A DNA stretch of 38,301 nucleotides from a virus, in IMG/VR virus record IMGVR_UViG_3300042889_000741, positions 1 to 38,301 of that record. One strand, given 5' to 3'. The translations under genes were made by a program, and so were the position numbers. Below are positions 6,044-25,629 of this stretch, in pieces. Numbering within the stretch: the first letter of the stretch is position 1; every line of letters begins with the position of its first letter. Below the pieces are notes generated by a model. It was not told the origin of the DNA. It saw nothing but the letters and a program-made list of their open reading frames with translations, and did no database searches.

Positions 6044-7084
6044 ATGGCTTTAAAAACTAAACAAAAAAGATTCAAAGAGATAAGCGGTAAGATGGACACG
6101 GGCGGGGCTCCAATCCACAACGACGATTTGATAATGTTGCAACAAAATAGCGATGCGGACTTTATAAATTCAGCTGAATACTACCGAAGAAAGTTGCCCG
6201 CTTTAATGTTTTACGATGGAATAGGTAATCCAACAGTTAAAAAGTTTGAAAACGGATTAATCCTTAGCGGGTTAACTTATGACAATACTAATCCATCGGC
6301 TCCCGTATTAAGTGAGGGTTATTTTTTAAGTGGAGGGGAGGTTTGTTATTATGCAGGGGGGTCATTTGTAACGCCTAATCCAAATCCTTTTTTAGTATTT
6401 TTAAGAAAAGGTACAGCTAGTTATACAAGTAGAGTTTTTAACGATGGATTTAATAAGGAAATTACAGTAAATTATTCGGTAGTTGTTGAAACTTCACAAA
6501 TTTCAGGACAAGGAAACATATTTCCGCCAGCGTCAACAATAGTTTCAACTGACGAAGTTGTAGTTATTGAAATGGGAAACGTTTCAGATGCAAGAATAGG
6601 GGAAAGTTATTTTACAAAAGAAGCGGCAATGAATGTGCAAAGCTTAGGCGATAGACTTTCAACTAACAATTTTTTTAACGTTACAGATTTAAGTGTTTCG
6701 GCAACTGTTGGGAGTGGAAATTTTATGAACTTTATGGGTTCAAGAATAGATAAAGACGGTGGTATAGATTTAACGGGGTCATTGACTGTTGTGGGGGCTG
6801 CTGGTTCTGCTTTAGCTGTTTTTAAAATCAATACAGGATCTAATAACTTTCCAGCATTAAGCGGTAACATCCCTTTTCCTATTACTTTAAACGTTGGTAG
6901 TGATTACGAAACTACTTACGCAATTTATAGCCCTTTCAGTCGTTTTGTTACTATTCCAGCTCCGACTATTGGAGCAACACCAGGCACATTTACAACGTCA
7001 ACAAAGTACTTTTTTAGCGCAAGGTTGATGAATGAAGCACCAACAGGATTTGCATTTAATAAAGGATTCTTAGATATTACTTAA
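6044..7084 (+). CDS. Putative tail fiber or tail structural protein
   Basis: The 346-residue protein begins with a polar region (KTKQKRFKEISGKMDTGGAP) and is otherwise rich in Ser, Thr, Gly and Asn with short hydrophobic strands, as in beta-rich receptor-binding or fiber-base proteins. A segment with YFTKEAAMNVQSLGDRLST may be a helix linking a base and a shaft. It closes the first late operon. Its 3' end overlaps by 8 bp with a small gene on the minus strand, and a terminator stands about 46 bases beyond its stop. No family recognised. Confidence 0.5.
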   Translation: MALKTKQKRFKEISGKMDTGGAPIHNDDLIMLQQNSDADFINSAEYYRRKLPALMFYDGIGNPTVKKFENGLILSGLTYDNTNPSAPVLSEGYFLSGGEVCYYAGGSFVTPNPNPFLVFLRKGTASYTSRVFNDGFNKEITVNYSVVVETSQISGQGNIFPPASTIVSTDEVVVIEMGNVSDARIGESYFTKEAAMNVQSLGDRLSTNNFFNVTDLSVSATVGSGNFMNFMGSRIDKDGGIDLTGSLTVVGAAGSALAVFKINTGSNNFPALSGNIPFPITLNVGSDYETTYAIYSPFSRFVTIPAPTIGATPGTFTTSTKYFFSARLMNEAPTGFAFNKGFLDIT

Positions 7085-7223
7085 TATCAGGGTGATTATC
7101 AAAATAGTAATCTAATATTTCACGGATAAGGGAGGCATTATTTGCCTCCTTTTTCTTTTTAAGGCGCTCGAATAACATTCTACGGCGTCCATGAATCCAC
7201 GTTTTAACTTCAATCTTTATCAT
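7077..7223 (-). CDS. Small ribbon-helix-helix-like regulator, minus strand
   Basis: This 48-residue gene reads from the ATG at 7223 down to a TAA at 7079-7077. The protein has a short N-terminal strand (IKIEVKTWI), a basic helix (GRRRMLFERLKKKKE), a turn (ANNAS) and a second helix (SLIREILDYYFDNH). This is the order and size of Arc/MetJ-type ribbon-helix-helix DNA-binding proteins, and 'SLIREIL' fits the usual helix-B start. A match to the Bacteroidetes -7 box (TACTTTTG on the minus strand, 7261-7254) stands upstream. Two direct repeats of TGGTCTAA lie in its leader. It is convergent with the tail gene, overlapping it by 8 bp, and divergent from the protease operon. It is probably an autoregulated late-gene regulator. 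Family and role are inferences from a short sequence. Confidence 0.65.
   Translation of the reverse strand: MIKIEVKTWIHGRRRMLFERLKKKKEANNASLIREILDYYFDNHPDIK
7131..7155 (+). terminator. Rho-independent terminator of the first late operon
   Basis: A perfect 7-bp stem, GGAGGCA (7131-7137) with TGCCTCC (7143-7149), has a 5-base loop and is followed by TTTTTCTTTTT. It ends transcription from the terminase-to-fiber operon. The hairpin lies inside the coding region of the minus-strand regulator, where the same bases encode EANNAS. Confidence 0.8.
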
Positions 7224-7227
7224 AATA

Positions 7228-7246
7228 TTGGTCTAAAATGGTCTAA
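7228..7246 (+). promoter_or_regulatory. Tandem operator candidate, two 10-bp-phased TGGTCTAA repeats
   Basis: TTGGTCTAA (7228-7236) and ATGGTCTAA (7238-7246) are direct repeats exactly 10 bp apart, about one DNA turn. They lie just after the presumed minus-strand start site, where binding could repress the regulator, and about 40-58 bp upstream of the plus-strand -7 box. TTGGTCTAA occurs again before the baseplate operon at 15660. Confidence 0.6.
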
Positions 7247-7253
7247 CTATATG

Positions 7254-7261
7254 CAAAAGTA
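7254..7261 (-). promoter_or_regulatory. Promoter -7 box for the minus-strand regulator
   Basis: Read on the minus strand, 7261-7254 is TACTTTTG, a match to the Bacteroidetes TAnnTTTG element. The regulator's ATG follows about 30 bases downstream. No good -33 box is visible. Confidence 0.5.
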
Positions 7262-7285
7262 CAAAATTTATCGACTAATAAAGGA

Positions 7286-7293
7286 TATTTTTG
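7286..7293 (+). promoter_or_regulatory. Promoter -7 box for protease/capsid operon
   Basis: TATTTTTG matches TAnnTTTG. Only 7 bases separate it from the ATG at 7301, so the transcript would have almost no leader. The -33 position is weak, which suits a promoter that needs an activator. Confidence 0.65.
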
Positions 7294-7300
7294 TTATTGT

Positions 7301-8422
7301 ATGGAAAAATTCGACTTTATTACTAACTATTCCAAATCTAAGAAAACGGCTAAAATGTCGATTCGTAGACCTATTGCTACTAATGTAGTGGATGGGATTA
7401 ACGGCGATATCTTTGCAAAAGAAATGGAGTATTTAGCCGAAATAGGAATTGATAATGTTATTATTGATATTAATAGCGTTGGCGGTTCAATAAAGGAGGG
7501 TTTTAGCATATTTTCAGCTATTAAAGACGCTCCATTTCATACTACTACAAGAGTTGTAGGGATTGCGGCTAGTATGGCGGGGATTATTTCACAAGCGGGG
7601 GACAAACGTATCATTTTGGACTATGGAATATTCCATGCACACGGGCCACAAGTTCCCAAAGGCGCTAAAGTAGATGCTGAATTGTTAAACATCATGCTAG
7701 GTAGCCTTAAAACAATGATTAGCACAAAATCGGGGTTACCAGAGGAAGAAATAAGCGCAATGTTAGGAACTGAAACCGTCTTAACTGCTTTAGAGGCAAA
7801 AGAAAAGGGATTCTTTGACGAAATAGAAGTAAGCAAAGGGGTGAAGCCTGTAATTAATATGAGTAACAACGTTGAAGCCTTATTTGAGGCTGTAAACACA
7901 TTTATAAACAAATCTAACAAAATGGAAAAAATCAGCACATTTTTAGCGCTTGAAAATTCGAGCGAAGAAACTGTTTTGAGCGCCGTTACGGAACTTAAAG
8001 CAAAGGCAGATAAAGTAGAGGGTTTAGAATCCGACATTACTGCAAAACAAACAGAAATCGAAGCTTTAACGGCTAAGGTTGCAGAAGTTGAAACATTAAC
8101 AGCTACTATTTTAGAGTTAAAAACTAAAGCGGCTACAATGTTAGTAGAAAATGCAATCAAAGCGGGTAAAATTTCGGAGGCTTCAAAAGAATCTTGGATT
8201 GAACAAGCTTCAAACGATTTTGAAAAAACAAACGATTTAATCGGTTCTATTTCAAGTGTTGTTGCAGCTAAGAAAATCACTTTTGAAACACCAATTAACG
8301 AAACTCGTAAAGATTGGGACTTTAAAACTTGGGGCGAAAAAGACGCTAAAGGTTTAGAGAAATTAAAAAACGAAAATCCAGAGCAATTTAACAAATTATT
8401 AAACAATTATTTAAACGCATAA
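7301..8422 (+). CDS. ClpP-like prohead protease with fused scaffold domain
   Basis: Residues up to about 190 form a ClpP/SppA-type serine protease. The segment NVIIDINSVGGSIKEGFSI leads to the nucleophile Ser91 in GIAASMAG, followed by the candidate catalytic histidine (His112 or His114) in GIFHAHGP. From about residue 208 (Met at 7922, in NKMEKISTFLALEN) the protein becomes an Ala/Glu/Lys-rich coiled coil that fits an assembly scaffold. The C-terminus, ending in NLLNNYLNA-like residues, would contact the capsid protein. Such fusions are common in phages, and the internal ATG could give scaffold alone. It stands 12 bp before the capsid gene, as expected. Confidence 0.85.
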   Translation: MEKFDFITNYSKSKKTAKMSIRRPIATNVVDGINGDIFAKEMEYLAEIGIDNVIIDINSVGGSIKEGFSIFSAIKDAPFHTTTRVVGIAASMAGIISQAGDKRIILDYGIFHAHGPQVPKGAKVDAELLNIMLGSLKTMISTKSGLPEEEISAMLGTETVLTALEAKEKGFFDEIEVSKGVKPVINMSNNVEALFEAVNTFINKSNKMEKISTFLALENSSEETVLSAVTELKAKADKVEGLESDITAKQTEIEALTAKVAEVETLTATILELKTKAATMLVENAIKAGKISEASKESWIEQASNDFEKTNDLIGSISSVVAAKKITFETPINETRKDWDFKTWGEKDAKGLEKLKNENPEQFNKLLNNYLNA

Positions 8423-8434
8423 AACCTAGAAATC

Positions 8435-9340
8435 ATGGCAGAACAATTAATTAAATTATTTAGCAAGGAATTACAAGAAAACTTGTTTCCAAACAACGAA
8501 TTTTACAAACAATCTAAATTGGATGGTGGTGTAGACGTTAACGCAAAAACTGTTGAAGTTCCACAAGCGGGTTCAACCCCTACGGTAACTAAAAACGTTT
8601 CAGTTTTCCCATTAGTAGCTACTACTAGAACTGACGATGTTAAGTCTTACACAGTAGATTTGTATTCTACCGATCCAATCCACATTCAAGATGTGAACGA
8701 AATGGTAATCAACTATTCTAAGCGTTCAGATGTTATCAAAGACCACGCTAGAACTTTGAATACTAGAATCGCAGACGAAATGGCTTATTCTTGGGCGCCT
8801 ACTGCTGGTGCTAACATTATTGTAACTACTGGTACTGCTGACGCAAGTGCTTTAGCTCCAAGTGCAACAGGAACTAGAAAAGTTATTACTTACGAAGATA
8901 TCGTGAAATTGGCAACAATGTTCGATATTGATGATGTTGATATGGGTGCTAGAAATTTATTAGTAGATACTAGATTGTACGCTCAATTATTAAAAATCAA
9001 CCAATTCGTGAACTTTGATTTCTTTAACAGAAAACCAACAGTTGATGGTCAAATTGGTGAAATCTTAGGGATGAAAGTTTTCAAACGTTCTAAATCAACT
9101 TACTTTGACGTTTCTAACGTTAAAAAAGCTGTTGGTGCTGCGGGTGCTGCAACTGACAACTTAGGTATATTAGCTTGGGCTGACAACGCTGTAAGACGTG
9201 CAGAGGGTAACGTGAAAATGTACGCTGATATGGACAATCCTTTGTATTTAGGTTCTATCTTCAATGCTTCTGTAAGAGCGGGTGCAATGATTGGAAGAAC
9301 AGATTCAAAAGGTGTTTACGCATTAGTTCAAACGGCTTAA
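8435..9340 (+). CDS. Major capsid protein (HK97 fold)
   Basis: The 301-residue protein follows the protease/scaffold gene and is the typical size of a mature-length HK97-fold capsid protein. It begins with a helix (EQLIKLFSKELQENLFPNN) and an E-loop-like region rich in Thr and Val (KTVEVPQAGSTPTVTK). It then has ADEMAYSW for the spine helix, LLVDTRLYAQLL and IGEILGMKVFKRS for the P- and A-domain strands, and a C-terminal segment about GSIFNASVRAGAMIGR. Codons in this gene are notably regular (many GCT, ACT, GGT), as expected for a highly expressed gene. Identification is by position, length and fold pattern. Confidence 0.85.
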   Translation: MAEQLIKLFSKELQENLFPNNEFYKQSKLDGGVDVNAKTVEVPQAGSTPTVTKNVSVFPLVATTRTDDVKSYTVDLYSTDPIHIQDVNEMVINYSKRSDVIKDHARTLNTRIADEMAYSWAPTAGANIIVTTGTADASALAPSATGTRKVITYEDIVKLATMFDIDDVDMGARNLLVDTRLYAQLLKINQFVNFDFFNRKPTVDGQIGEILGMKVFKRSKSTYFDVSNVKKAVGAAGAATDNLGILAWADNAVRRAEGNVKMYADMDNPLYLGSIFNASVRAGAMIGRTDSKGVYALVQTA

Positions 9341-11789: not shown

Positions 11790-11796
11790 TTAGACT

Positions 11797-11825
11797 AAAG
11801 GGGCTTTTATAGTCCCTTTTTTTTT
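11797..11825 (+). terminator. Terminator after the chaperone genes
   Basis: AAAGGG (11797-11802) pairs with CCCTTT (11814-11819) across an 11-base loop, followed by a T-run to 11825. The last T is also the first base of the next -7 box. Confidence 0.6.
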
Positions 11826-11832
11826 AACTTTG
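11825..11832 (+). promoter_or_regulatory. Promoter -7 box for tape measure operon
   Basis: TAACTTTG matches TAnnTTTG. Five bases (AATCC) separate it from the ATG at 11838, so the transcript is nearly leaderless, as at 15696 and 37584. Confidence 0.6.
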
Positions 11833-11837
11833 AATCC

Positions 11838-13514
11838 ATGAGTGAAAAAACGGTTTACGTCATTGAATTAAACGACAAGCTTTCGCCTGGTCTTAAAAAG
11901 GCGGCGGCAAATGCTTTAGGTTTAGACAATGCAATCGGAAAGGTAAACAATAGCGGAAATCAAGGCTTTTCAAATCTAAAAAGTTCGGTAATGTCATTAT
12001 TACCAGCTTTAGCCGCAGCGGGTGTTGCGATGAAAGCTTTCCAATTTGCAAGTGAATCGGTAACGGAAGCAAGGAACTTTGAAAGCCTTACAAATGCGGT
12101 AACTTTTGCAAGTGGTTCAATGGAGGAGGGCGCAAAGAACATGGATTTTTTACGCCAACGTTCGGAGTTATTAGGTACTAACTTACTTAGTTCCGTGGAG
12201 GGCTTTAAAACTTTGTCCGCTTCAATGATGGGTTCAAGTTTAGAGGGACAAGCAACAAGAGATATTTTTGATGGGGTACAAGTGGCTGTATCAGCTATGG
12301 GGCTAGATGCTGAAAATGCTAAAGGCACTTTCCTTGCTTTAGGTCAAATAATGGGCAAAGGCAAAGTACAAGCGGAGGAGTTAAGAGGGCAAATAGGGGA
12401 AAGGATTCCAGGCGCATTTAATATTGCGGCACGTGCAATGGGCGTAAGTACTCAAAAGCTTAACAAAATGATGGAGCAAGGGCAATTGATGTCCGAGGAC
12501 TTCCTACCTAAGTTCGCCAATGAATTAAAAAAGACATTTGGAGGGGCATTGCCTAAAAGCGTGAATAGTTCGGCTGCGCAATTCAATCGTTTTAAAAATA
12601 CTATGTTGGAGTTGAAAGTGGAGTTAGGAAATAAATTGATTCCTGTTTTAAATGATTTGATGGGTAAGTTTAAGGAGTTTTGGGGTTTCTTAAAAAACAA
12701 TTCAACTGTTATTTATAATTCTATTGTTAAGCCTTTTTTGGATTTAAAAGATTCAATTATGCCTGTTTTGCAACAAATAGGAGATGCGTTTAGTAATATT
12801 TTTAGTGGTGGAAGTGGTGGTGTTTTTAGTTCGGCAATGAGTTTAATTAGGGAATTATTAATAGGAATAAAAGCAATTTTAGAGCCTATTTTTAAACTTA
12901 TTGGAGATGTTACAAGCGCTTTTTCTGATATGTTTAAAGACGTTAGAAAAAACAGTGAATATACATTTAGACAAAAAACAATAGCAGATCTATCCTATTT
13001 TGCAACAGCGGCAACGGAAATAATAGGAGGGGTAATTGATGTTATGCAAGTTGGTTTTAGTAAGGATATTTTGAATCCTAGTAAAATGGCTGCTGCAACA
13101 AATAGAATATTAAACGCTAAATCAACAGCCCAAGCAGCCGAACAAAATACTTTAGCAGAATTAAAAAAATCAGCAAAAGAGCAAAAGTGGGATGAAATGT
13201 TTGCACGTGGTAAATCGGTAAACGATGAAAGGTTAAAAAGCGCTTTAGCTGGACTTGATTCTGTTTTAAACACAGATGCTAATGGAAGCAAAGGAACATT
13301 AGACGCAAACGGTAAACCTACCAAAATGGCAACATCAACAGTTGATGAAATTAAGAGTGGGCGCCCAATGAATATTTACATCGACATCAACAAGCTTGTT
13401 GAATCTTTTAACGTAACGGCAACAAATATAGACGATATGAATAACAAAGTGAAAGACATGGTGGCTCAAGCTTTAATGAGTGCGGTAAACAACGTTAATT
13501 TAATAGCTAAATAG
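11838..13514 (+). CDS. Tape measure protein
   Basis: The tape measure protein sets tail length and passes through the tube during DNA ejection. The 558 residues contain the typical N-terminal tape-measure domain at about residues 65-230, with FESLTNAVTFASGSMEEG, AFLALGQIMGKGKVQAEEL-like GTFLALGQIMGKGKVQ, GQIGERIPGAFNIAARAMGV and LPKFANELKKTFGG. Hydrophobic segments follow (ELLIGIKAILEPIFKLIGDV, YFATAATEIIGGVIDVMQVG). Five hundred and fifty-eight residues predict a short tail. The gene has its own promoter directly behind the chaperone terminator. Confidence 0.9.
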   Translation: MSEKTVYVIELNDKLSPGLKKAAANALGLDNAIGKVNNSGNQGFSNLKSSVMSLLPALAAAGVAMKAFQFASESVTEARNFESLTNAVTFASGSMEEGAKNMDFLRQRSELLGTNLLSSVEGFKTLSASMMGSSLEGQATRDIFDGVQVAVSAMGLDAENAKGTFLALGQIMGKGKVQAEELRGQIGERIPGAFNIAARAMGVSTQKLNKMMEQGQLMSEDFLPKFANELKKTFGGALPKSVNSSAAQFNRFKNTMLELKVELGNKLIPVLNDLMGKFKEFWGFLKNNSTVIYNSIVKPFLDLKDSIMPVLQQIGDAFSNIFSGGSGGVFSSAMSLIRELLIGIKAILEPIFKLIGDVTSAFSDMFKDVRKNSEYTFRQKTIADLSYFATAATEIIGGVIDVMQVGFSKDILNPSKMAAATNRILNAKSTAQAAEQNTLAELKKSAKEQKWDEMFARGKSVNDERLKSALAGLDSVLNTDANGSKGTLDANGKPTKMATSTVDEIKSGRPMNIYIDINKLVESFNVTATNIDDMNNKVKDMVAQALMSAVNNVNLIAK

Positions 13515-15659: not shown

Positions 15660-15689
15660 TTGGTCTAATTAGGTTTAATAGGGTTAAAA
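15660..15689 (+). promoter_or_regulatory. Phased 10-bp operator repeats before the baseplate operon
   Basis: TTGGTCTAAT, TAGGTTTAAT and AGGGTTAAAA stand head to tail at exactly 10-bp pitch, with a decaying match to GGTYTAA. The first nine bases equal the site at 7228. The array ends 6 bp before the -7 box at 15696, so a bound protein would lie across the -33 region. Confidence 0.55.
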
Positions 15690-15695
15690 AATATC

Positions 15696-15703
15696 TATTT
15701 TTG
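15696..15703 (+). promoter_or_regulatory. Promoter -7 box for baseplate/fiber operon
   Basis: TATTTTTG matches TAnnTTTG and is followed by only TAACC before the ATG at 15709. The -33 position reads TTTA (15674-15677 region) instead of TTTG. Confidence 0.6.
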
Positions 15704-15708
15704 TAACC

Positions 15709-16008
15709 ATGAGCCGCGACATTCGACTAGAAAATAACGATTTATATATTGATGGGAACATTGGCGACTTCGCTATTGGGGAAAGTGATCCGCAACACGT
15801 TCAAGACATATTGAATAGCTATGCTGGATGGTGGAAGCAATTTCCAACTTTAGGAGTAGGGTTAAAGCGTTTTTTGGGAAAAAGTGGCGGCATTCAATTA
15901 GTAAAGCGTGAAATCGGAGTACATTTAAAAGCGGATGGGTATAGGGTGGATAACATCGTGATAAAAGGCGAAGAAGTTTATTTAACGGGCGAAAGAATAA
16001 AAAAGTAA
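15709..16008 (+). CDS. Baseplate wedge protein, gp25/gpW-like
   Basis: The 99-residue protein fits the gp25 family (T4 gp25, P2 gpW, Mu gp46), the small wedge component that helps to start sheath assembly. Key features are the strand pair DLYIDGNIGDFAIGESD, the family-like helix VQDILNSYAGWWKQFP, the segment TLGVGLKRFLGKSGG and a C-terminal strand VDNIVIKGEEVYLTG. It has a nearly leaderless promoter and overlaps the next gene by one base. Confidence 0.8.
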   Translation: MSRDIRLENNDLYIDGNIGDFAIGESDPQHVQDILNSYAGWWKQFPTLGVGLKRFLGKSGGIQLVKREIGVHLKADGYRVDNIVIKGEEVYLTGERIKK

Positions 16009-24212: not shown

Positions 24213-24337
24213 CATTTAATGCTTGGCGCGCTTATATCATGCTTGCGCAAGGACACAAAGAACAATTCTTAGCTTATTGCGATTCGTGCAATTTTAGCGT
24301 AGATGAAATTAATCACATTATAAATCAAACGGTATGA
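24200..24337 (+). CDS. Small protein before the PP-loop gene
   Basis: The 45-residue ORF overlaps the previous ORF by 13 bp and the next gene by 4 bp (ATGA). Its sequence (LTFNAWRAYIMLAQGHKEQF, then YCDSCNFSVDEINHIINQTV) looks like a small helical protein. The ATGA overlap suggests translational coupling to the DUF3440 gene. No family recognised. Confidence 0.55.
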   Translation: MDKLTFNAWRAYIMLAQGHKEQFLAYCDSCNFSVDEINHIINQTV

Positions 24338-25629
24338 AGCAGTATAACAATGAATTGAATGTTTATGAAGCATCAAAAGAACGTATTGACTTCATATTTA
24401 AAAATTTTAAAAGAATATACATAAGTTTTAGTGGAGGAAAAGATAGTGGAGTTATGTTAAACCTTGTTATTTCTTACATGAAAGAACATAACATAAAAGA
24501 AAAAGTGGGTTTAATGATAATGGATAATGAAGCTAATTTTAATCTTTCTTTAGAGTTTATGCATAGAATGGTAAAGGAAAACTTAAACTATTTAGATGTT
24601 TACTGGTGTTGTTTACCTATTTCTTTGCCTTGTACGGTAAGTTCTTATGCTATAAATTGGCAATGTTGGGGGGTAAATGACGAGCAATCGTGGATAAAAC
24701 CAATGTCTAAGGAAAAATATATTGTAAACATCGATAATCATAAATTTGATTTTTTTAGAGAAAATATGAATTATGATGAGTTTTGGGATAAGTTCGGCGA
24801 TTGGTATGCTAATGGAGAATCTTGTGCTTGTTTGATAGGGATAAGAACAGATGAAAGCTTAAACAGGTATAGAGCTATTATGAATCAAGATAAAACAATG
24901 TTAGACAATAAATTTTGGACTAAAAAAAACACAAACTTTGTTTACAATTGTTACCCTATATTCGATTGGAAAACACAGGATATTTGGGTTGCCAATGGTA
25001 AGTTTGAATGGGATTATAATAAGCTATATGATATTTTTTGGAAAGCTGGATTAACAATATCTCAAATGAGAGTAGCTAGTCCTTTCATGAGTGAATCAAA
25101 ATCTAGTTTAAATATGTATAGAGTTATTGATGCTGAAATATGGTCTAGATTATGCGCTAGAGTTTCTGGTGCAAATTTTATAGCCACATATGGAAAACAA
25201 TTAACTTACAGAAGTTTTAAACTTCCAGAAGGACATACTTGGAAAAGCTTTACTAAATTTTTACTAGAAACTTTACCTAAAGAAAGCGGAGAAAATTTTA
25301 AGTCGCGCTTCATTCAAAGTATTAAGTATTGGTGGAGAGTGGGGCGCGGATTGGATGAAAAGGTTATTAGGGATTTAAAGAAAAACAATATTGATTTTGT
25401 TATAGGGGAAAATACTAGGCACGGGAACAAAGATAAAAGGTGTGTTAGAATGATTCCTCCAGACCATTTAGATATGCTTAACTGTCATAATTCAGAGGTT
25501 ACAAGCTGGAAAAGATTTACTTTGACAATCTTAAAAAATGACCATACTTGTAAATACTTAGGGCTTGCCCCAACAAAAGAACAAGCTATTAGACAAAATG
25601 AAATTAAAGAAAAATATAAAAAATTATAA
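24334..25629 (+). CDS. DUF3440 PP-loop (PAPS reductase-like) protein, IbrA-like
   Basis: The 431-residue protein carries the PP-loop SGGKDS at residues 33-38, in YISFSGGKDSGVMLNL, the ATP-pyrophosphatase signature of PAPS reductases, DndC and tRNA-thiolation enzymes. The segment CACLIGIRTDESLNRYRAI and a C-terminal domain with VTSWKRFTLTILKNDHTCKY match the DUF3440 / IbrA pattern. It should bind ATP and activate a substrate by adenylation; the substrate is unknown. It is followed 2 bp later by the cupin and then by the ParB-like gene, recalling the IbrA-IbrB pair of E. coli phage-like elements. Its codons are very AT-rich compared with the late genes, which may reflect horizontal gain. Confidence 0.85.
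   Translation: MKQYNNELNVYEASKERIDFIFKNFKRIYISFSGGKDSGVMLNLVISYMKEHNIKEKVGLMIMDNEANFNLSLEFMHRMVKENLNYLDVYWCCLPISLPCTVSSYAINWQCWGVNDEQSWIKPMSKEKYIVNIDNHKFDFFRENMNYDEFWDKFGDWYANGESCACLIGIRTDESLNRYRAIMNQDKTMLDNKFWTKKNTNFVYNCYPIFDWKTQDIWVANGKFEWDYNKLYDIFWKAGLTISQMRVASPFMSESKSSLNMYRVIDAEIWSRLCARVSGANFIATYGKQLTYRSFKLPEGHTWKSFTKFLLETLPKESGENFKSRFIQSIKYWWRVGRGLDEKVIRDLKKNNIDFVIGENTRHGNKDKRCVRMIPPDHLDMLNCHNSEVTSWKRFTLTILKNDHTCKYLGLAPTKEQAIRQNEIKEKYKKL

Follow-up and report, generated by a model that had tools for sequence, protein, structure and literature searches.

Most of the known small ribbon-helix-helix (RHH) proteins of phages are repressors. The Arc and Mnt proteins of phage P22 and the members of the Pfam family RHH_9 (PF19839) are about 50 aa long, with a basic N-terminal segment and two helical segments, and Arc-type operators are built of half-sites about 11 bp apart. 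In phage Mu, virion-gene promoters are controlled by Mor and C, which are larger helix-turn-helix (HTH) proteins. For phages of Bacteroidetes, all Winoviridae have been described as possessing Mu-like structural proteins, in a report whose main text does not contain the words repressor, regulator or promoter (PMC8776804), and the Pippivirus isolates were described as lytic (PMC7077304). The promoter consensus reported for Bacteroidetes is TAnnTTTG/TTTG for the −7 and −33 elements (PMC7366714, PMC2483708), with no recognisable −33 element in F. johnsoniae (PMC7366714). The literature on late promoters of Bacteroidetes phages, judged by titles and the openings of abstracts, contained no account of late-gene timing, and no literature on ribbon-helix-helix proteins in Bacteroidetes phages was found.

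We analysed the virus record IMGVR_UViG_3300042889_000741 over its 38,301 nt (positions 1–38,301, hereafter the window), which contains a hidden 48-aa ORF encoding a predicted RHH-like DNA-binding protein. Like Arc, Mnt and RHH_9, this protein has about 50 aa, a basic N-terminal segment and two predicted helical segments and, as for Arc, its candidate operator comprises two half-sites about one helical turn apart. Unlike these systems, the gene is located antisense inside the virion gene cluster, its sites occupy activator-like positions at the promoters of head and baseplate genes, and the operator sequence diversifies between phages. The likeness to Mor and C would lie in the control, proposed here, of virion-gene promoters in a phage whose head proteins are Mu-like. 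The Mor site, reported to be centred at −43.5 (PMC4390567), is also near the position of the second site described below. Mor and C differ from the regulator family in their size and HTH fold, no sequence relation to them was found (the Mor/C family was absent among the Pfam, NCBIfam and PHROG matches of the regulator family), and the host RNA polymerase would here be of the Bacteroidetes type, as judged from the relatives and the −7 boxes.

The sheath protein of the window matched those of the Flavobacterium phages lotta8-1, pippi8-1 and FPSV-S1 (about 42%) and of the Winogradskyella phage Peternella_1 (28.5%); lotta8-1, FPSV-S1 and Peternella_1 are Winoviridae according to their records. In lotta8-1, gp33, a 60-aa minus-strand gene annotated as hypothetical, lies beside the protease gene (L071:6377–6559), and FPSV-S1 has an unannotated 64-aa minus-strand ORF in the same place (L072:6343–6537). 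TAAAGAC repeats 11 bp apart start at −64/−53 (lotta8-1) and −65/−54 (FPSV-S1) from the protease start. The place, the orientation and the adjoining tandem repeat are thus as in the window, whereas the protein did not match the profile of the window's family and the repeat sequence is different; this small gene may take the functional place of the window's regulator. Peternella_1 carries an annotated DNA-binding regulator at the same place, with weak HTH matches, for which a terminase small subunit is also possible. Elsewhere in the window, a PAPS-reductase/DUF3440 gene (24334–25629) had no match in five long relatives, one of which (G004) is a partial record.

The minus-strand gene and its product

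The ORF is read from ATG to TAA from position 7223 to 7077 on the minus strand. Its stop overlaps by 8 nt the end of a convergent virion gene (6044–7084, plus strand), a putative tail gene that is the final gene of the upstream operon and matched neither Pfam nor PHROG. On its other side, the head maturation protease gene (Clp-type; 7301–8422, plus strand), identified by matches to CLP_protease in Pfam and to the PHROG head maturation protease, is the first gene downstream of a candidate promoter, P1; the same operon includes the major capsid protein gene (8435–9340, plus strand; profile matches).

A search of IMG/VR with the window protein returned 15 loci with 77–85% identity. With alignments as queries, this number rose to 19 and then to 23, with identity down to 53%; the gene start is truncated by the contig end in one of these 23 loci (L030). 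Altogether, 33 homologous IMG/VR loci were found for the small gene, several of them near-duplicates and all complete except one. The protease search returned 10 loci, the eight closest with 50–59% identity and the other two with 31%. In the nearest relatives, the regulator is thus 77–85% identical compared to 50–59% for the adjacent protease, and its protein is better conserved than both the flanking tail protein and the protease. A search with the capsid alignment gave 31 loci, and the small gene was present in 10 of 12 loci inspected (ten new contigs from this search, and L016 and L017 from the protease search); the contigs of the two others, L047 and L058, begin within or at the protease start and do not reach the place of the gene. 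The family was absent from the two loci with 31% protease identity (L024 and L025) and from the named phages (L071–L073). No bacterial homologues were found in searches of genome contigs, the window protein matched none of the phage records, and the member from L045 showed only chance-level matches to phages and plasmids (E 2 or worse; E 9).

The frame was open in the homologous loci, without stops. Relative to the window, dN ranged from 0.08 to 0.41 and dS from 0.64 to saturation, with 11.5–26 synonymous differences over about 26 sites. Among all pairs of the 19 unique sequences, differences were most numerous at the third codon position (3640), followed by the first (1781) and the second (1162). 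These results indicate purifying selection and lead us to conclude from sequence comparison that the 48-codon minus-strand ORF is a real gene, as the first-pass annotation had proposed. The same annotation regarded it as the only convincing minus-strand gene of the phage. Among the minus-strand ORFs of the window, 86 are 40 aa or longer, and 29 of these had tblastn matches in five relative genomes; when the coordinates of these 29 were compared, it was the only ORF found outside the conserved plus-strand genes and open in all five relatives. It is also small enough to be easily missed by gene callers, as had been suggested. A 261-aa open frame antisense to the protease gene (7621–8406, minus strand) was rejected as a gene, and appears to be a shadow of the plus-strand gene since stops interrupt it in all five relatives.

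A plus-strand terminator had been noted inside the ORF, and a candidate intrinsic terminator of the upstream virion operon was indeed located there (7128–7162, plus strand), formed by a hairpin at 7128–7152 and a U-run. The hairpin folds 5.2 sd better than shuffled sequences (z −5.2). For 13 lineages, the plus-strand fold of a 17-codon stretch was compared with that of 300 synonymous recodings of the same peptide. None of the 300 recodings folded equally well for the window, and the hairpin was better than at least 97% of the recodings in eight lineages (window, L001, L005, L007, L008, L012, L013 and L055), but not beyond them in the five others (L028, L031, L045, L051 and L016). We conclude that the hairpin is maintained for its own sake in most lineages, though not in all. 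It would end the upstream virion operon before read-through into the regulator gene and P1.

The order of structural elements proposed in the first-pass annotation, that of an RHH protein, was supported in one member of the family near the RHH_9 cut-off; matches of the other members were weak or absent, and the AlphaFold monomers did not contain the strand. The protein of L045 aligned end to end with RHH_9 (residues 6–46 on profile positions 6–46; E 7.3e-5), with a score of 23.0 bits that misses the curated cut-off of 23.4. The six other members in this comparison did not match RHH_9. In a separate profile comparison, an RHH match was obtained in only 2 of 15 members (E 0.049 or worse), and the window protein matched no model of Pfam, PHROG or NCBIfam. 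The AlphaFold monomer of the window protein is a single helix (residues 2–43; pLDDT 87.5, pTM 0.44), and that of a relative, obtained from a deeper alignment with another first sequence, has two helices (2–23 and 30–43) and an N-terminal pLDDT below 50; strand pairing between two chains is beyond what such monomer models can show. A sequence search of solved structures gave unrelated weak matches only and no RHH protein, and fold searches with the low-confidence model returned nothing. Near the protein's own gene there are repeated half-sites spaced by about one helical turn, an arrangement typical of RHH proteins though not unique to this family. The regulator probably has an RHH fold.

Operators and candidate promoter boxes at the head and baseplate genes

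The leader of the ORF had been described as containing two direct repeats exactly 10 bp apart, which also lie upstream of the protease/capsid promoter. The repeats are TGGTCTAA at 7229–7236 and 7239–7246, and the paired site, O1 (7228–7246), reads TTAGACCA-TT-TTAGACCA on the minus strand. In the window, TGGTCTAA occurs three times compared to 0.95 expected, and 8 of 100 shuffles reach this number, so that the 8-mer is not rare by number alone and its significance rests on the relatives. We extracted 25 rows upstream of the gene and counted 22; L017, L029 and L034 were excluded as near-duplicates, L034 being also devoid of the protease. Paired half-sites 10 bp apart were found at the same location across these rows. 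The first half resembled the sequence after it at 5.91 of 8 positions for a lag of 10, at 3.14 for a lag of 11 and at no more than 2.2 for any other lag between 5 and 15. The sequence itself differs between phages (12 distinct 18-mers in the 22 rows), both halves usually changing together. The window has TTAGACCA/TTAGACCA, the largest group has TTGGACCA/AAGGACCA and L031 has TTGTCCCA/TTGGGACA; TTGGCCCA/ATGGCCCA and, in reverse, TTGGGCCA/ATGGGCCA are among the other versions. The two halves of one genome resembled each other more than did halves re-paired between genomes (p 0.011). From this conserved architecture, we conclude that the paired operator O1 is real. Over the same 22 rows, O1 lies 53–56 nt from the protease start codon (sd 1.1) and 5–15 nt from the regulator's own start (sd 2.6). 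The spacing is thus kept more tightly to the protease than to the regulator, and we conclude that O1 is anchored on the protease promoter.

The minus-strand TACTTTTG box attributed to the regulator gene is present (7254–7261, minus strand) as a candidate −7 box, but this position is held in a minority of relatives: a box was found there only in the window, L013, L008 and L012 (TG for TA), with weaker resemblances in L031, L053 and L055. A second Bacteroidetes-type −7 box, TATTTTTG, is located at 7286–7293 on the plus strand and is the candidate −7 box of P1. A −7-like element occupies this fixed place before the protease gene in 9 of 15 lineages and is 1 nt off in L031. Inspection by eye of P1 showed no TTTG −33 box. 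Just 5–7 nt separate the ends of three late −7 boxes of the window (TANNTTTG; 7286–7301, 11825–11838 and 15696–15709) from a start codon, which suggests that late mRNAs have no leader or almost none; the box at 11825 has a terminator immediately 5′ of it.

The third TGGTCTAA of the window, at 15661, lies ahead of another TATTTTTG (15696–15703, plus strand), the candidate −7 box of a promoter P2, and of a baseplate-wedge-like gene (15709–16008, plus strand; phrog_120, E 0.00026). This second site, O2 (15660–15678), consists of TTGGTCTAA followed at 10 bp by TAGGTTTAA, a degenerate version of the second half. An alignment search with the baseplate gene gave 32 loci, and the upstream sequence was inspected in 26 of them, that is, in all except L091, L093, L096, L098, L099 and L100. 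An O2 half-site was seen by eye in 14 of these 26 loci; the 12 others had no intergenic gap or no site. For scoring, the 14 loci and the window were reduced to 11 non-redundant rows by dropping the near-duplicates L078, L079, L082 and L085. The best half-site starts 47–53 nt before the position taken as the baseplate gene start in all 11 rows, and in nine of them it beats 95% of the 60-nt windows from its own record (p < 0.05), L074 (p 0.098) and L083 (p 0.13) falling short. Compared to the half-site of O1 in the same genome, that of O2 is identical at 8 of 8 positions in three of five records and at 7 of 8 in the two others. A permutation test of this cognate pairing was not significant (10/120; five records), partly because two of the five records share one operator. 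O2 is weaker than O1 and usually comprises one half-site only. Where no gap separates the baseplate gene from its neighbour (G005/G007 type), O2 is missing, and the second target is thus not universal.

Most long records contain a single strong operator, and the operator is rare elsewhere in the genome. A genome-wide regulon was thus rejected, as only O2 and two copies in the record of L012 stand out. These copies, with a single mismatch each, are 32 bp apart (L069:2844 and 2876; region 2844–2893) and lie directly ahead of a nuclease-like gene that starts the terminase operon, in this record only. A candidate third operator before the tape-measure gene (TTAGACTAA, window position 11790) was also rejected, because the preceding reading frame ends at this site, with a terminator after it, and because GGACTAA is kept in the relatives whatever their own operator type. 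Direct repeats of the GTTACAGA type were observed upstream of terminase operons, in the long intergenic stretch that follows the primase gene (G001, G005 and G006), and are possibly an origin or sites of another regulator.

Covariation of regulator residues and operator type

RHH proteins touch DNA through their N-terminal segment. Residues of this predicted strand region vary together with the operator: KTW is found with TTAGACCA, KAW with TTGGACC and KIFLKVG with TTGTCCCAA. The corresponding segments are IKIEVKAW with TTGGACC, IKIEVKTW or IKLELKTW with TTAGACC, IKIFLKVG with TTGTCCC, and IKKEFKVW with TTGGSCCAA. Most of this covariation follows the family tree and thus does not constitute independent evidence. 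The exception is the window, which shares the T residue (KTW) and the operator TTAGACCA with the L012/L016 group. A tree of five virion proteins rejects the window and this group as one clade (p-AU 0.012), in a test where the group was chosen by the trait, after a first tree, and where the window is a long branch. Convergence, or exchange of a regulator-operator cassette, may account for the shared residue and operator. The dS between the window and L012 (0.64) is the lowest of the set, which favours cassette exchange.

Proposed regulation of the late promoters

The data make it likely that the small protein binds these operators and thereby regulates the late promoters of the head and baseplate genes. 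Its fold, DNA binding, autorepression and sign at the late promoters are inferred here from sequence and site position. The regulator would most likely be an RHH dimer, with two adjacent dimers on half-sites one helical turn apart. O1 lies where transcription of the regulator gene would start, so that the bound protein would cover the start of its own minus-strand transcript and limit its own synthesis. The head protease/capsid transcript is expected to start about 60 nt downstream of the same bound protein, and the baseplate transcript about 40 nt downstream of protein bound at O2. Measured from the first base of the −7 box, the centre of O1 lies about 49 nt upstream at P1 and that of O2 about 27 nt upstream at P2, two helical turns closer. 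In E. coli, activators act from class I and class II positions. At the late promoters, we give activation a somewhat better than even chance over repression, because O1 and O2 lie upstream of, and not over, the late −7 boxes, because of the missing TTTG −33 box at P1, and because the constant spacing of O1 is to the protease gene and not to the regulator gene. The protein would thus activate two late promoters while repressing itself.

Alternatively, the protein could be a pure repressor that represses its own gene and silences the head and baseplate promoters until titration or dilution relieves them, thereby timing late expression in the manner of Arc or Mnt. This is possible, though rather unlikely: it would agree with the usual function of small RHH phage proteins, with the overlap between O1 and the probable start site of the regulator transcript, and with the extension of O2 to the −33 region of P2, but the P1 −7 box is left uncovered, about 39 nt downstream of the end of O1, and the rigid spacing between O1 and P1 (sd 1.1 nt) would be unnecessary for an upstream roadblock. 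It is improbable that the protein regulates only itself, O2 and the rigid spacing being by-products of a compact divergent promoter. The single strong operator of most long records and the usual single half-site of O2 speak for such a restricted function; the position of O2 is nevertheless conserved in 11 of 11 loci, the record of L012 has two more near-copies ahead of its terminase operon, and O1 is fixed relative to the protease and not to its own gene.

We consider it very unlikely that the ORF encodes a conserved small protein of another fold or function, such as DNA packaging or host takeover, with the repeats serving another DNA-binding protein. AlphaFold and the fold searches did not confirm the fold, and the RHH_9 match, below the cut-off, comes from a single member, but the strand residues and the operator type change together across lineages, and KTW and TTAGACCA are common to the window and the L012/L016 group despite the rejected clade, an observation that cassette exchange could also explain. 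Finally, next to no weight can be given to a chance antisense frame in which the conserved DNA would be merely the terminator and the promoter region. A conserved terminator does sit in this region, but the homologous loci are free of stops, dN is far below dS, differences are in excess at third positions, and the conservation of the protein exceeds that of the flanking tail protein and protease.

Returning to the activator with autorepression, we tentatively propose, as a reading that falls well short of an even chance, that in Mu-headed Bacteroidetes phages the late promoters are activated by a family of 46–52-aa proteins that are encoded antisense to virion genes and act from a fixed distance upstream. 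This distance would differ by about two helical turns between the head and the baseplate promoters, and the operator codes would be private to each lineage. In isolated relatives, the same slot would be filled by a protein outside the family with a different tandem site, making the late switch an exchangeable cassette, and the coding sequence would double as the terminator of the operon behind it. Late-gene timing in Bacteroidetes phages is little described, and our analysis names one candidate 48-aa regulator and two promoters for it. The naturally altered pairs of residues and operators would also provide a ready data set for the DNA recognition code of a minimal protein.
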